Shown piece after piece: positions 36,714-45,700 of a stretch of 64,000 nt of DNA (position 1 is its first letter; every line of letters begins with the position of its first letter). This DNA is from Mugil cephalus (Eukaryota > Chordata > Actinopteri > Mugiliformes > Mugilidae), in contig NC_061777.1 of the NCBI RefSeq assembly GCF_022458985.1, positions 9,712,668 through 9,776,667 of the forward strand. Direction: 5' to 3'. The translations under genes were made by a program, and so were the position numbers. The notes below the pieces were generated by a model. The model saw only the letters and a list, made by a program, of their open reading frames with translations, was not told the origin of the DNA and ran no database searches.

Positions 36714-39700
36714 TCACGGCGAGAAATTCCCCAGCAGGTCCGGGGTAATGTAGCCCACGGGCAAGGCGGCCTTGGAGGGGTGCTGCGGCAGAGAGGGAGG
36801 GGGAGACTGGCGGGGAGGCGGGTTGAGGAGCACACTATGGTGACTGTCCAACTCCTGTACAACTGTGTAGTCTGCAACAGGGGCAAAGAACGTGGACTGG
36901 GGAGAGTCAGGAATTATGTAAGGTGACTGATTATCCTCTGTCAGGGCTGCGGGTTTCGTCTCCACTGGCTGAGGGTGTATGGCTTGGTAGCCATCGCCAG
37001 GCAAGGGAGTGCTGATCTGCCGGACACTGCTCTCTGGGTTGTAGCCATTCCCCTCTGGATCCACTACCACCAGCTGGAACTGAAGCTCCTTTTGCTTCTC
37101 TTGGTCTTCGCTGTCTTTTCCCTTCCTCTGCCGTTCCTCTTCCGTGGCCGAGGTGCCCTCTTGGATTCTGAGCTGCTGACCAGGAGACAGCACAACACCC
37201 CCAGAGGGCATCACATTGCTGACTTGGGCGTAGAAGTCTGTGTTGACCCACGTCTGTGGCCCTGGCGTTTGGGTTTGGACAAGGGACCTTTCGCCTCCGT
37301 CCAACGCTGGTGCACCTTCTGTAACATCGAAGGAGGCTTCTTCGTCCTCGGGCTGACCTGGCAGAAGAGTGGCCATCAGCATTAGGGTGTCTCGTTCGGG
37401 CACATCTGGGTTGTAGCATCTTGCCTGGCCCGAGTCGTCATCAGGGAAGCTGGGAGTGAACGACGAAAAGAAAGGAGAAGAAATTCATATTTGCACGGTC
37501 TTCTGCATGAAAACAAGGGCTTTATGAGAGAACCTTTGGCTTACCTGACGTTATTGGAGCACCCTACATTCATGTGGTGGCTGATAGACTGAGGCACACC
37601 CAGGAGCTTCTGGGTGTCTGAGCCACGGCTATCCCCCTTCTCTTCACCATCTGCATTCTCTGCATCCACCTCGATGAACTCGACCCACGGCTCGTCTTGA
37701 TAGAAGTCTGGCGCATAGGTGGGTAGGCCGCCCATGCCGCCACCAGTCAGGATGAAGTTCAACTCGTCCAGCTTCCCCTTCTGCATGTGCACAGATTTAT
37801 GTGTAGTGGCAGTTAGGATGCAGAAAGTAACAATAATAGTTTTTCCTCTGGAGAACTTTGCAACTCATGAGTCTAAATGCTCAGATGTATTGACCCCAAA
37901 ACTCAACAAGCTTTACGTTTCACCTCTATCTGTGAAAAAAATGGCAGCATTATTGTTTTGGTCAGGCTTGACGTTTCGGTCGCATTCTGTTTATTGTTAT
38001 TATTAACAGGCAACCACTGGGAGAGGAGCGGTGGGTGGGTGGCGATTACGTGGCCTAACATGCCCCAGTTGAATGAGACACACAGACACACAGAGGTCTG
38101 TCTTTGATCAGAATTACAATGGAAATGTAATCAAAAAATAAAAAAACATGGTTACACAACGCTTTATATAATCACTTCACTGAATCAGCAAAGCATAATT
38201 TGACTGTTAAACAGTCTACTATTTGTGTTTACATCTGTGTACAATCCAATATAAATAGAACGTATACATTAGAGTCCAGATGACACTGGATTTTTGATTT
38301 AAATGAGATGAAACTGTTAAAAGACAAACACTGAAGTATGTGATACACAAATAAGAATATTTTCCAACTGAAAAGGAAACTCTGCTTGACAAAACATCAG
38401 TGTGGCAATGTCCTGACTTGCCTTAAACGTATACATCTTTACATCTTTGACAAGTTAACTCACACTGGTAGCGCTACTGGTGGGGTAAAAAAAAAAAAAA
38501 AACACTGACAAGCACAGACATACAGCAGATGTACCTTCAACAGCTCTGAATCGATGCCTTTGATTTTGGGTGCGGGAACAGGTGGCAACAGAACCATCAT
38601 TAATCTGCAATGACAGACAGACACGATGTACACACTGTAAAACCGAAGAGTAAAAGTGGGTTAACAACTTTTTCAAGTCTTTTTCCCTTCACAGCTTAAC
38701 AATGAAATAGTAATGATGTTTTTGTCATTTTGTTTAGTATTTAAAGAGTTGAGTGATCCGCACATTTCAGTCAATAAATGCATTGAAAATTCATTTAACA
38801 CGGATACATACACAGACAGTTGGACCAACTCAGACACACAAGTGTAAACACAGACAGAAAAACACGAGTGGATTGTCCATTGTCACTATCGTAACTAACG
38901 TGTATTCCTCTTTCAATGCCCACAAAAGTGGGGCTCATCCATACTGTGATGTCTCAGATTTTAAGAATGAGGTTGTTCACACAGAAACTGACAGTCAGTC
39001 AATGCAGAGTGAAGCTGAATCTAATGAGGGTGATCTTATTTAAAGTACCCTTGAGGTGGGTACTCCTACGTGTAATCCTCTAGATTCTGGAGATGACATA
39101 GGCACATGGCAAACTCAATTAAGAAACAACTTAGCTTCTTTGTTTTTAAAAATGCACAGCGTTCTTCATGTATTGGAGTCAGCTATACAGGTCATAGTTG
39201 AAAATCTGGCACATATATTCTCATTGTCTAAACCTCTACTGAGAGACGCTGTCATCAGGGTTTTTCAGGACCATGACCAGGCAATTAGTGACTCCCTTCT
39301 TCATGACTTAGTGGAAGTTTTGATGAAAACTAATGTTTTTGTCAGCGCCACATCAGATGGTGCAGAGCTTTCAACTGCTAAGCGCAGGAAAACATTTGTA
39401 AGGGCCAACTACCCTTTGGCAATACCAGTACAGTACACTATAGATTCCAGTGGACACACAGCAGTGTATGTGTCAATACTGCAGATGATTCAGACAATGT
39501 TTAAGAATACTGACATTCTTGACAGGATTCAAGAAACAAACCATCACCCCCTGGAGTGTCTCATGAAGATGGAACATATTTCAAAGAAAACCCGCTATTG
39601 TCAGAGGGTGGAGAGCTTAAACTTGCACTGATTTTGTATGTGGATGACATTGAACTAGTGAATCCTTTAGGCACATCTAGAAAGATCCACAAACTTTATG

Positions 39701-42700
39701 CAGTATTGGTTACTTGCCAATGTACCTAGTAAATATAGGTCCAGTCTGCATGTTATTCAGCTAGCTCTGCTATGCAAAATGTGGTTATGAAAGTGTACTT
39801 TCACCTTTGTTGAGAGGTGCACTCTTGAGCAGGAAGGTGTTTTTGTTGCAACTCTAGGTCAGTGTATCAGAGGGACTGTATTTTGTGTGGCAGCTGTTAA
39901 TTTGGCTGCCCATGGCCTTGCAGGCTTTGTGCAGAGTTTCCGAAGCAACTATGTCTGCAGATTCTGTTGCTGTACTGCAAACGAGATCCAGTCCAGTAGT
40001 TTCTGAAGCAGAGTTTAACATGGGAACAAAGGCCTGTCATGATGTTCATGTGCAGAATGCTGTGCAGGGAGAAAATGCAACTTACTTTGGTGTTAAATGT
40101 GAGTGTGCTCTTAGCAAGACTTTGCAACATTTTCATCCCATTACTGGCTTCCCGTCTGACATACTTCACAATCTATTTGAAGGTATGGTGCCAGTTGAGT
40201 TGGTGTTGTGTATCTCTGAGATGATCCGTCATAAGTATTTCACTCTCGATTATCTAAATGCACAAATCCGGACATTTCCATATCAGCATGCTGATAGGCT
40301 TGATAAACCACAAGTGATCCCCAAGAATTTTTCAACAAAATTAGGCATTGGTGGGAATGGGCATGAAAATTGCACTTTGTTGAGGTTATTACCTCTTATG
40401 GTAGTAAGTAAAGTCCCAGAAGGAGATGAAGCCTGGGCCATATTGATGGACCACAAAGACATTGTGCAACTGGTATTGTCTCCATCTTTCACAGAGGAGT
40501 CCATCCAGTACATGAAGACTAAAATAAATGATCACCGACAAGGTCTTCAGTCGGCACTATCCAGAACTGGCAAAGTGTTTTGGGCCTCTTGTTCACCATT
40601 GGACCTTGACATTTGAAGGAAAACATCGCTTTTTCAAAAGGGTCATACACGACACACGTAATTTTAAGAACATTTTGAAAACACTTGCTACCAGGCATCA
40701 GCACATGATGGCATATAATTTCAGTGCCCCCCGCATTTTTCAGACCTGACATAGAAGCTTCTAGTGTCACCTCCAGCCAAGTTTCCACACTGCCTCTAGT
40801 GGCAAAAAACTTCATAGAGACAAAGACCAATAGCCAGAACATATACAGTGCACCAAAGATCTCCATAAGTGTCACAGAGTTTGCAAGGGAAATGTTTGTT
40901 TCTGCAGGTCAAACTGGAGGACTGCCAACATTTAGCAAGACTGAGCACATACCGCTTGTCAATAACTTTGTTTTCTTTCACTGCAGGGACTACAACAGGT
41001 ACACTGAGCATTTGCGGTCATTTCAGCCGACGTCCTCAGACAACTTCTCTGTGTATCAGCTATCAGAGCTCAACGACATAGTCAGCCATCAATATTGATG
41101 GGCATTTAGTGTTAACACAACAACAAACACAACAAAAAGATTTATTTTGTTCAGAGACTGAAAGAATTAAAATATGTTTCAAAGTGGGGACCTATAGAAT
41201 CTAATGGAGCAGCGTGGGGAAAAAAACACAAGTGTAGTCTCACATCCAGTGCCACTGACACTGCTCAGTTCCCACAAGCCTGGAAGAACTGAACAGAGTA
41301 AGTTTTTTTATTTATTGTTTTGCAAATGCTACACATGATACATAATACAAACCAATCAATGTACGTTTTTCATTCAAAACTGATAATGTGCTTCAAATTG
41401 TAATGCCAAAGCTAATGTTACCGATTTATCCATTTTTTTCTCTTTCTCCATAGTAATAGGAAATGGCGGCTCAAAATCTCCTTCTCCACGTTCACATTTC
41501 GACTGACATTGTTAGGGAGATGTCGCTATCCTCCCGACCAGATACTGTAGATGATCTCAAAACAATAATCAAAGAAAGATTTAAGTTAGACTTTGACTTT
41601 AACTTGTCTTTCGAAGACCTTGACTTTGATGGGCAGTTGTGTACATCCTTGTCTCAAAGAGCTGGGGTCACAGACAGGATGGTACCGCTGGAGTAAAGTT
41701 TAAAATGGGGAACTTCCGCGCAAAGTTGAGTCGGGCAGGATTTAGTGAGGTAGCTGTAAATGCCGGAAAAAGGAGTAAGAACAACCCCGACAAACAGCCT
41801 ACCCATGCTAATATTAAAAGGCCAAAATGGGCCGAGGTGAATTTCCTCCCAAATTTCCTGAGAGGTGAGGATCTTGAAAGCCTGGAAAAAATTAGGCTCC
41901 AAATTGTAGACGAAGTGAAGATGATTGACAAAAACCTGATGAGCTGCCCGTTGGAGAGATCCTGGAACACTGGCCTGCCCTTACAATGGAGTCCCGGGTG
42001 AAAATAGTATCAGTACACACAGATTTAATTGTTTTCTTGAGCACTTTTTAGGTGATCAAACGTGGCTTATGCTTTAAGGTAAAGCTTTACGTGACCCCAC
42101 ATTTGAGAAATGGTTACAGTGATTTTCCATTATGCAAGAGATGTGAAAACTCTTATTTATTTCTGGTTTCATTTTTTATACAGACTGCAACATTTAACAG
42201 TGATTTTATGTTTGTACAGATTTATTCTGAGTGTCACAGGATCACAAAAATCAACCCGAAAAACCATTTCTATGCTGAGCTGGATCGACATGTTCCACGT
42301 CTATAAAGTCTGTTCAGGAAAAAATGCTGCACGCACTGGAAAGGCAGCAGAAGCTCCTGATCAGCTCTTTAGCGCTTACGACCTCCAGGTGAGTTGGTTA
42401 CACTTCCTGGTGCTTGACAGCAATAGTGAATTATGTTCAAACTCTAATCTCTACAGTCTTGAGTCTATTTTACTGAAACGTGTCTAAAAAGGATTTGTTT
42501 TTTCAAGACAGAAACAATTGTTAACATGTGCATGGAGACGTAAGACACAGAACAACAACAAATAAAAACATTTTCCATGCTAGAGGACCCACAGCGACAA
42601 AGACGCTGTTGGTCTGTTGCGCATAACAAGAGTGTGTTTATCACAGAGCTGCGCACGTGCCACGCAGGTCAGCTCTTTGCAATAGCACAATCTACTGACT

Positions 42701-45700
42701 TAAATGTGAAATGTTTCACAAAACAATGTGTGGTTTTTGGTCTGTTTTTGTTTTTAGAAAAGTTCAACTATTAAATGAAAAATAGGGAGATTGTTTTCAA
42801 AAACAAAACAAATGCCACATTTGGCATTTTTCAACCTACTGTCAATAGTGTGTTTTTATATATTGCTTAACGTACAGAGTGAAGAATTATGTTCTCTCAC
42901 TCAAGGAACAAGTTGACGTCCATGGAAGACGTGCTGTTGTTCTCTATGCTCTCCCTGCTTATCTGTGTGAGGATGACTCCAAGTTCCTGAGGATGTGGGA
43001 TGTAAGTCAGCATACTGTTATATGAAATGTTTGGAATTTGCTTGCTCTGTGAATTTAGGGAAAAAAAACATGTTCTGGTTGTTTAGTTTAAGTTTTGAAT
43101 TAGTATTTAGTATTTCCATAAATTTGTTTTTGTAGTGTACAGAAGGGATGCAAAACAAGCAACATATTGTTGCAGAAATAAAGAACAGTAATCAGAACAA
43201 ATAGAATTGAACAAGTAATAGAAATAAAGCATTAAACACCTTATTCAACAAATAATAACGGTCAGTATAAACATATCAATATACAGTATATGCAACAGTG
43301 AATGCTCTGATCTCCTATCATTAGCCTTTAACAGTCATTAACTAAACCAATAACTGGACAATTAACATACAAAACATAGATGAATAACAAAGAGGCAGAC
43401 AACCATCGAATTCAAGCCTACTGGTTTCTGAACGCACACAGGGTCTAGCTCACAAAATCAAAGGAACGGCAACAGTAATTTGCCCGTCAGCCTCTACATC
43501 GGGATGCTTCTCCCTGCTGCACTGACTAACTCTGCAGAGCCTTTTTTCTGATAGTAGGGGACGTAGTTCTGCACATTTTTAACTGATTATTTCTTGGCAG
43601 GCTGCGCTTCGTCACATAATCATATTCAACAACAGTTGACAGTTGTCCCTTTACTTCAGCACTTTAAAGTGTTGACGACCATGATCAAGGAATGTTATGG
43701 AGGTAAGCTCTGTAGGTTAATAGATCAAAAAAAGAACTCCCCTGATGTTATGAAATTCACGGGAAAGATATTTTTAGTGTAGCAAAAGGAGATAATATAA
43801 ATTTACATCAAGTTGGCAATTTGATACTAAAACAGTTTAATAAAGTCAGGCAAGAAATCTTCATTTCATTATTTCATTATTTATTTGATGCTGTATCTCG
43901 AGGTGCAGTCGGTTTGTATTGTGGTACGCCAAGAGGCGTTTCTCCTTTCTCGCTCATCTTCAGCCTGTGGACTCCCCTGAACTGGACACTGATGACGCAC
44001 CAGTCGGCCTCGCTTTGATCCGTGCCAGTTCAACTGATGCCACATTCCTCTGCCCGGAGAGGGCTGCAGTTCTCATTGAGGGTAATCTTGTGATTGACGT
44101 GACTACATTGGCTGAGGCCTATGTGATTCTTCTTGCCTTGATTTATGCGCTGCATTTACAGTACCCAAAAGACTTGGTCAATAATTTCGACTTCATCCAA
44201 AAAGGGTTGATGGGTCTGGAAGATGGAAAGTTGAGGCCCAGAGTGTTGAGCCTTAAAAACGACCTTTTGGCTGTGGAGTAATATGGCTCTTAGAAACAAC
44301 GTTGATGCACAACAATTCATAGGCACAGGCAATTGAAACATCTTAGTGTTTTGATGTTATTGTTCACCTCCATGTTGTAGGTTTGACAGCTGGACAGCTT
44401 GGATATGTTATTGAAAACATTTTCTGCCATGCATTTGTAGGTGCATGTGGTATACTGACAGTTTTAAAAATAGTTTAAATATTTCTGTGGTTTCTCTTTT
44501 TTTTTTAATTGTTTACACACGAGGGCACTGTTTTTGAAAAAAATGCACTATTTCAGGTATTCAGCACATGGAAGTGTAGAATTTTAGAAAACTATTTATT
44601 TGTTGTTGTACGTTTGCTCAATAAAGACTGAGTTGCATCTAACCTTGTTAATGTGTTTTTGACTGTAGGTGTACTACATAGAGATTTTGATCTTAGTTTG
44701 AGTTAAACTGAGCAAGTTTTTTGCCTGTATTGGAGCTAGTGTAGAGCTTCTTCTGAATTGAAAATTTTAAGTAAACATAAGCGAAAAACTCAGTTTTACA
44801 ATAATAAGAACATTCAAGTTATCTACATTTGTACTTATCAGATAAGTTTTGTTAAACTTACCAAAGTAAGTCAGTGCCACTTAATTTTACAAGTAAAGCA
44901 TATTTAACCAATACTGCTTTTTTAGTTCAAAATGTTTAGTTAACATTAATTAAAAAATTGTATGTAGTCATTTTCAACAATGTTTTTTGAGAACTAATCA
45001 GGGTTTACAGTGCATGGTGTGTTATAGTTGTCAGTATCTGGGTGCATGAGTGCATGACACTGTTGATTCACCAATCTGCTGCAGATCTATCAAGCATCTG
45101 TCACCACCACATCCATGAAAAAGAGAGTGCAGCGTACCTGTGCTGCTGAGAGAGCGCTATCAGCATGAGGAGGATGAGGACGCCCACGATGCCAAAAACA
45201 AGAACCAGTGTGAAAGGGACGGTCGACTCTAAAAAGCAAAATAAAGAAGGACGTTGTTAACCAGGTTGCTCAAGTTTGGGCATTTTCGCAAATTTTGAAC
45301 TGGATGAAGTAACTACGCAGTTGTATTTATTTACTGCACCTCACCCAGAGATTTATCTCCAGTACCTCACCTTGGACGGGAACATCAGTCACTTGAATGA
45401 AGATGGAGTCACTGAACTCGCCAAATTTAATGAAGGCAGGCATCCTGCAGCGGATGTGCACTTCATACTCTTTCCCTATGTGCAGGCCGAAGATTGTCCG
45501 CTGAGGGTGTGGCTGGACATCCAACTGAAAATTGCAGAGACGAAGACAAATGTGACGCAGGTATGTCTTTGTGTGGGATTTCTGACAGATGCCAATGACT
45601 GTGACAGCGATCCTTACAGGAATAGCTACAACAGGAACACTGAAGATGACTGAAGGTAATCAGGGTGTCGAGAGGTTTATTTTTGGTTCCCGTAACTGTG

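Follow-up and report, generated by a model that had tools for sequence, protein, structure and literature searches.

Transposases of the CMCT clade are defined by the motif order D, D, CxxC, HxxxH, E and by duplications of 2-5 bp (PMC12730594). Plavaka and fungal EnSpm elements of this clade have this motif order, and some of them carry TET/JBP dioxygenases (PMC12730594). Transposition of the plant element En/Spm, which has CAC..GTG ends, needs two proteins of its own, TnpA and TnpD; TnpA is essential, interacts with TnpD and regulates the promoter (PMC1636069). Among animals, Schistosoma SmTRC1 is a CACTA element with 2-bp direct repeats in 7 of 14 copies, a second, shorter product and relatives in zebrafish (PMC1636069), and zebrafish EnSpm families are expressed, mostly non-autonomous ones (PMC9341512). 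In plant MUSTANG-B, a short 5' PB1 exon is joined to a transposon-derived protein (PMC3435246). Among the matches listed in our literature searches, none described an EnSpm-like element with a partner gene of PB1 or SAM type. Here we analyse a 64,000-nucleotide stretch of the Mugil cephalus genome (the window; NCBI RefSeq assembly GCF_022458985.1, contig NC_061777.1, positions 9,712,668 to 9,776,667), in which positions 38633-45012 (6380 bp) are, judging from their sequence, one decayed two-gene DNA transposon, a copy that is no longer active. Two genes, a transposase gene (gene 1) and a gene with a PB1-like start and a SAMD3-like body (gene 2), lie head to tail between CACTG ends with imperfect inverted repeats of 12 bp, and the whole is flanked by a 2-bp duplication (CA).

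The element differs from each of these systems. The two En/Spm proteins come from one alternatively spliced unit, and CACTA stands in the ends of that element (PMC1636069); here the ends are CACTG, and two successive genes are found, the second bearing a PB1- or SAM-like domain. The transposases of TRC elements have a conserved Transposase_21 domain, and the second product of SmTRC1 is described as evolving fast and as not found in other species (PMC1636069), whereas here only a below-cut-off Transposase_21 match was obtained and gene 2 is common to two clades. No TET/JBP dioxygenase was seen in the gene-2 pieces scanned. In MUSTANG-B, PB1 is fused to a domesticated MULE transposase (PMC3435246), whereas here it heads a separate second transposon gene.

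Linkage, common descent and signs of protein-level constraint show that gene 2 regularly belongs to the element and has long been inherited with it. With regard to linkage, searches of one host genome (635 Mb, 24 contigs) yielded 57 transposase loci and 85 gene-2 loci after merging of matches; these counts are lower bounds, and the merging distances of 3 and 4 kb, which were our choice, may fuse neighbouring elements, as probably happened on contig C2 near 27.875 Mb. A sequence-only reading of the window had predicted that the two families would adjoin on the same strand, and at 28 of the 57 transposase loci gene 2 does lie downstream on the same strand within 8 kb, against 0.03 pairs expected under uniform scatter. 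The gap is below 1 kb in 24 of these 28 pairs, and the single other arrangement in the pair count is the gene 2 of a neighbouring element. In this one genome the pair thus withstood the refutation test that the sequence-only reading had set. Two further pairs (L010 and L019) came from tblastn of fetched loci, and 27 of the 40 gene-2 loci that were found by body or first-exon queries are paired. Accidental adjacency, either of unrelated repeat families that inserted nearby or of a chance pair spread by an old segmental duplication, would agree with the many solo loci in both families; the excess of same-strand pairs, seen in two deep clades, and young copies that move as a single unit with their own 2-bp duplications speak against it. 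On the pair count we rejected this explanation for the host genome, and its remaining probability is negligible.

These young copies form a sister family of five copies with both genes (two on contig C17 and one each on C5, C8 and C15), which are the best-preserved transposase relatives and are 98-100% identical across most compared stretches, the full-length comparison being that of L062 with L065 only. They begin with CACTGTAAGAAAT and finish with TTTACAGTG; the right end is present in all five, the complete left end in four, and in the fifth an AT repeat replaces it. The four complete copies are flanked by the duplications TG, TA, TA and TA, i.e., 2 bp in each case, and in all four CACTG..CAGTG ends enclose both genes, as the sequence-only reading had expected of intact loci. 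The L062 element is 6724 bp long; its transposase frame is open over 832 aa, and gene 2 comes after it in the same orientation. Plant CACTA elements have subterminal repeat arrays; in L062, the motif CTGTAAA, which was picked after looking, occurs four times in the right 700 bp and not in the left 500 bp (shuffle mean for both together 0.39, largest value 3). Right ends of the young family with 83-90% identity also occur at C21:5273641, C2:27409094, C1:48136882 and C1:48218218; since the left-end search matched nothing nearby, these isolated ends may be diverged or non-autonomous copies.

The limits of the window element were likewise read from copies elsewhere. Its terminal repeats CACTGTAAAACC (38633-38644) and GGGTTTACAGTG (45001-45012) pair at 11 of 12 positions between CA/CA flanks, but these termini alone are weak evidence because CACTGTAAAA-like sites are common in the window (13 sites with at most one mismatch; shuffle mean 8.4). 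The last exon of gene 2 and the left end each match many genome loci, often the same ones. Ten loci compared with the window element by blastn share parts of its left side and parts of 43072-44101, and most of both genes is missing from them; their right edge falls at 45012 or a few bases beyond in 6 of 10. The exact right-end string TTTACAGTG is present in five of nine of these relatives searched, each time with a different flank, and a sixth has one changed base. The shared ends and different flanks indicate that the ten loci are internally deleted relatives of the window's mobile unit, and we take from them that gene 1 at its start and gene 2 at its end both belong to this unit. The possibility that the deleted relatives have a different left end was settled exactly for one of the four whose left sides were compared, which has the window's first 26 bases, and in mutated form for two more; the fourth has lost this end. 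Flanks readable on both sides were TA/TA in one deleted relative and TG versus TA in another. The deleted relatives also retain several hundred bp after the first bases that are missing from the window copy. Since copies elsewhere stop at the same ends, the element is fixed at 38633 and 45012. The earlier proposal of two genes between one pair of inverted ends is thus confirmed; its limits of 38753 and 44281, which are open-frame limits, have been replaced.

As an observation in its own right, the deleted relatives (L033-L040, L057 and L077) represent a non-autonomous form with about 10 copies, in which only the first part of gene 1 and, of gene 2, the last exon are kept.

The features of the window element are as follows.

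38631..38632, no strand: left 2-bp target site duplication (CA), like the 2-bp duplications of the four of four two-ended young relatives.
38633..38644, + strand: left terminal inverted repeat CACTGTAAAACC; the element's first 26 bases also stand at the left end of a relative on contig C11.
38753..39628, + strand: gene 1, N-terminal transposase half, interrupted (frames 38753-39040 and 39044-39628).
39637..39672, + strand: gene 1, putative first catalytic Asp block (YVDDIELVNPLG), resembling YQDSFEIVNPLG of L062.
39858..40613, + strand: gene 1, conserved block with GNGHENCTLLRLLP (the GxxHENxxLLRLLP block, 40353-40394).
39887..39967, + strand: gene 1, putative second catalytic Asp block, mutated (AVN for GDN), and CxxC pair (CRFC, 39956-39967).
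40528..40746, + strand: gene 1, putative last catalytic Glu block (TFEGKHRFF, 40609-40635).
40709..41095, + strand: gene 1, C-terminal part of the transposase.
41463..41693, + strand: gene 2, PB1-like first exon (MAAQNLLLHV...EDLDFDGQL); Pfam PB1 E 0.006, below cut-off; five genome matches including itself.
41693..41998, + strand: gene 2, middle of the SAMD3-like body (VKFKMGNFRAKL...KRPKWAEVNFLPNF).
42220..42385, + strand: gene 2, two-frame body exon with a donor-like site (GTGAGT) after it.
42912..42995, + strand: gene 2, short exon (VDVHGRRAVVLYALPAYLCEDDSKFLRM), assigned by eye.
43967..44281, + strand: gene 2, last exon of the SAMD3-like body, ending at 44278 with the stop codon to 44281; probable exon start.
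45001..45012, - strand: right terminal inverted repeat GGGTTTACAGTG; the same end occurs in deleted relatives with different flanks.
45013..45014, no strand: right 2-bp target site duplication (CA).

Gene 1 of the window is a broken transposase gene that runs through several frames across 38753-41095, and the GxxHENxxLLRLLP block by which it had first been recognized lies inside it. Because the transposase is frame-shifted and has lost the second catalytic Asp (AVN, not GDN), the window copy is dead. The intact arrangement is seen in the L062 transposase, in which D312, D400, C421xxC424, H628..H632 and E653 were read from the alignment, i.e., two Asp, a CxxC pair and an H(3-4)H pair before the Glu. 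The termini are 5'-CAC..GTG-3' in the window and in all four two-ended young copies, and the duplications are of 2 bp in these four and CA/CA in the window. Since catalytic motifs, termini and duplications agree, the element fits a divergent animal lineage within the CACTA/EnSpm-Mirage-Chapaev (CMC) group. The sequence-only reading had compared the layout of the two genes with that of plant CACTA elements; this likeness is supported and would go further than layout, as the three lines of evidence place the element in the CMC group itself.

A new superfamily outside the CMC group with convergent CACTG ends seems improbable to us. It would agree with the finding that every match to Transposase_21 or Plavaka is weak or falls below cut-off (Transposase_21 in 4 of 32 transposase rows, best E 0.0071, bits under the 28.6 cut-off; the Plavaka model in 2 of 32), given that animal TRC elements have a conserved Transposase_21 domain (PMC1636069), whereas the full order D, D, CxxC, HxxxH, E, the CAC..GTG ends and the 2-bp duplications fit the CMCT definition (PMC12730594). 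Further Pfam matches to the transposase rows were weak ones to DUF4218 (2 of 32) and one to zf-C2H2 (1 of 32, E 0.0021); L062 and L065 gave no zf-C2H2 match, and C2H2-like patterns were noted by eye at the N terminus of L065. An NCBIfam scan of the transposase returned just two bacterial names, at chance level.

Gene 2 of the window has its ATG at 41463, its stop codon ends at 44281, and it points in the same direction as gene 1; the PB1-like start and SAMD3-like body that had been ascribed to the second gene are both recovered. The window copy seems no longer to contain what comes after the PB1-like exon in relatives. Four of five first exons match the Pfam PB1 family (PF00564) with E 0.0018-0.009, a longer reading of L070 giving 0.022; none of these matches reaches the cut-off of 23.6 bits. 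PB1 domains contain an acidic OPCA-type motif, and EDxDFDGxL or close variants of it are present in all five aligned PB1-like exons. In the sister clade, gene 2 starts with a SAM-like exon instead, for which SAM_TNK matches were obtained in both exons scanned (E 0.15 and 0.063, below cut-off); the proposal of PB1 as the N terminus of the second protein thus applies to the clade of the window and describes one version only. A Foldseek search with models of both types of first exon gave no match at E <=0.001, profiles of the PB1 and SAM exons gave nothing meaningful against solved structures, and NCBIfam gave no name for gene 2.

Common descent of the two genes is indicated by a tree of 22 transposases, in which one branch (support 100/100) parts 8 SAM-type from 10 PB1-type gene-2 loci, four of the 22 having no assigned gene 2 and the type being taken from the first exon at 6 of 8 SAM-type and 5 of 10 PB1-type loci and from the body or last exon at the rest. 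The window belongs to the PB1-like side. The two transposase clades are about 30-45% identical in aligned parts, and gene 2 has the same place and orientation in both. Within the set of 8 SAM-type loci, identity in the transposase correlates with identity in gene 2 (r 0.65 over 21 pairs, a value reached in 64 of 5000 permutations). When subfamilies are compared, silent changes have mostly reached saturation and both proteins are still similar. The dN/dS values that could be computed there are 0.14-0.35 (gene 2) and 0.10-0.28 (transposase). All dN/dS values were taken from tblastn-aligned codons only and are thereby biased toward low values. The decayed copies L071, L073 and L023, which are closely related to one another, have dN/dS values of 0.67-1.0 in both genes; for L062 against L065 the transposase gives 0.44 and gene 2 gives 0.87, with few changes. 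As the proteins are similar despite saturated silent sites, gene 2 was probably maintained as a protein by selection while the elements were active.

These data bear on the explanation that an ancestral element picked up a host gene in a single Pack-type capture and that gene 2 is this passenger, of no help to transposition. Capture of host sequence is known from CACTA elements and PB1 is usually not transposon-associated (PMC8616336), an unverified human SAMD3 sequence resembles the gene-2 body, some transposase loci are without gene 2, and the dN/dS of 0.87 between two young copies would also agree with a passenger. Against this, gene 2 keeps its place and orientation in two clades of such divergence and shows signs of protein-level constraint between subfamilies, whereas a useless gene would be expected to decay or vanish over that time; we thus consider a passenger unlikely.

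We favour the reading, with a probability of roughly 0.7, that the element is a CMC-group two-gene cut-and-paste transposon, decayed at this locus, and that gene 2 most likely encodes an oligomerising accessory protein that is TnpA-like in role. The occurrence of both genes together at many genome sites suggests that the partner probably helps or controls movement of the element. The DDE transposase of gene 1 would cut at the CACTG ends and insert the element with a 2-bp duplication, the motifs and insertion mark having been observed and catalysis being presumed; the gene-2 protein would self-assemble via the PB1-like domain at its N terminus (a SAM-like one in the sister clade), its SAMD3-like body may bind DNA or the transposase, and it could gather both ends into a transposition complex or tune activity, as TnpA does in plant En/Spm. 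The parallel with TnpA of maize En/Spm, the closest in function, is one of role, with no homology claimed.

Several observations weigh against this favoured reading. By coordinates, 29 of 57 transposase loci have no partner, and no transposase was detected beside 57 of the 85 gene-2 loci, these 57 being for the most part fragments of 3' exons (in a search 4-5 kb upstream of two of them no transposase was found); the suggestion that pairing explains the repetition of both families therefore holds in part. A third transposase clade (L024, L025 and L029) has no gene 2 in the fetched stretches, and nothing resembling it was found where one third-clade place was followed downstream for about 5.5 kb; this clade may do without gene 2 or have something else in its stead. 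Moreover, the PB1-like and SAM-like domain calls are putative, consisting of below-cut-off matches and models.

An alternative function, to which we give some weight as a tentative possibility, is that gene 2 acts against host silencing, by anti-silencing or self-regulation, and not in DNA cutting or joining. SAM domains are common in chromatin proteins, which we count in its favour. Maize TnpA switches a methylated promoter back on and represses one that is active (PMC1636069), and the TET/JBP genes of fungal elements are thought to aid escape from methylation (PMC12730594); on the other hand, Pfam or NCBIfam scans of gene-2 pieces recognised neither a catalytic nor a methyl-binding domain.

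Some further loci were noted. Three third-clade transposase fossils (L024, L025 and L095) lie inside about 90 kb at C7:25.84-25.93 Mb; one third-clade fossil adjoins a frame that by eye resembles an immunoglobulin V segment, and these fossils may thus have multiplied with an immunoglobulin gene cluster. At C1:52780809-52781891 (- strand), a SAM-type gene 2 with 51% identity, a 383-aa open frame and two TGA codons in the match has no detected transposase within 8 kb and is either a solo remnant or a possible host copy. With regard to the surroundings of the window element, minus-strand exons to its left (36714-37864 and flanks) match the Pfam family GHBP (growth hormone receptor) with E 7.8e-50 and 2.5e-23, and a minus-strand frame at 45327-45659 has by eye the look of a cytokine-receptor extracellular exon, with no Pfam match. 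The transposon seems to lie antisense inside an intron of a growth hormone receptor-like gene.

SAMD3 (sterile alpha motif domain-containing protein 3) is a single host gene in mammals whose product starts with a SAM domain. Its body resembles that of gene 2, as far as an unverified sequence shows, and its SAM start parallels that of the sister clade; it differs in being a single host gene. The unverified human SAMD3 sequence matched the profile of the PB1-type body with E 4.8e-9 and that of the SAM-type body with E 8.9e-5, in a set with 2000 shuffles. Against the host genome this sequence gave only weak matches, the best (E 1.9e-4) at a gene-2-like locus that was also matched by the gene-2 search. 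Clusters of gene-2-like matches without detected transposase occur at C2:29.8-30.2 Mb and C2:31.04-31.09 Mb, with five last-exon matches and three frames of 233-344 aa, each with one internal TAG, that weakly match the unverified SAMD3 sequence; these clusters could represent a duplicated host gene family. A bolder idea, which we hold to be doubtful, is that a deep lineage of animal CACTA-group transposons depends on a second protein with an exchangeable N-terminal assembly domain (PB1 or SAM) and a constant body, and that vertebrate SAMD3 is a domesticated copy of it. SAMD3 may have been domesticated from a transposon or captured by one.

Many fish proteins are annotated as 'SAMD3-like' or 'uncharacterized'. 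If the favoured reading is true, many of them would be transposon genes, which bears on gene counts and expansion studies. Animal CACTA-group elements would also gain a conserved accessory protein, and two different assembly-type domains would head one transposon protein. The young family, with its recent insertions and readable ends, provides material in which this could be tested.

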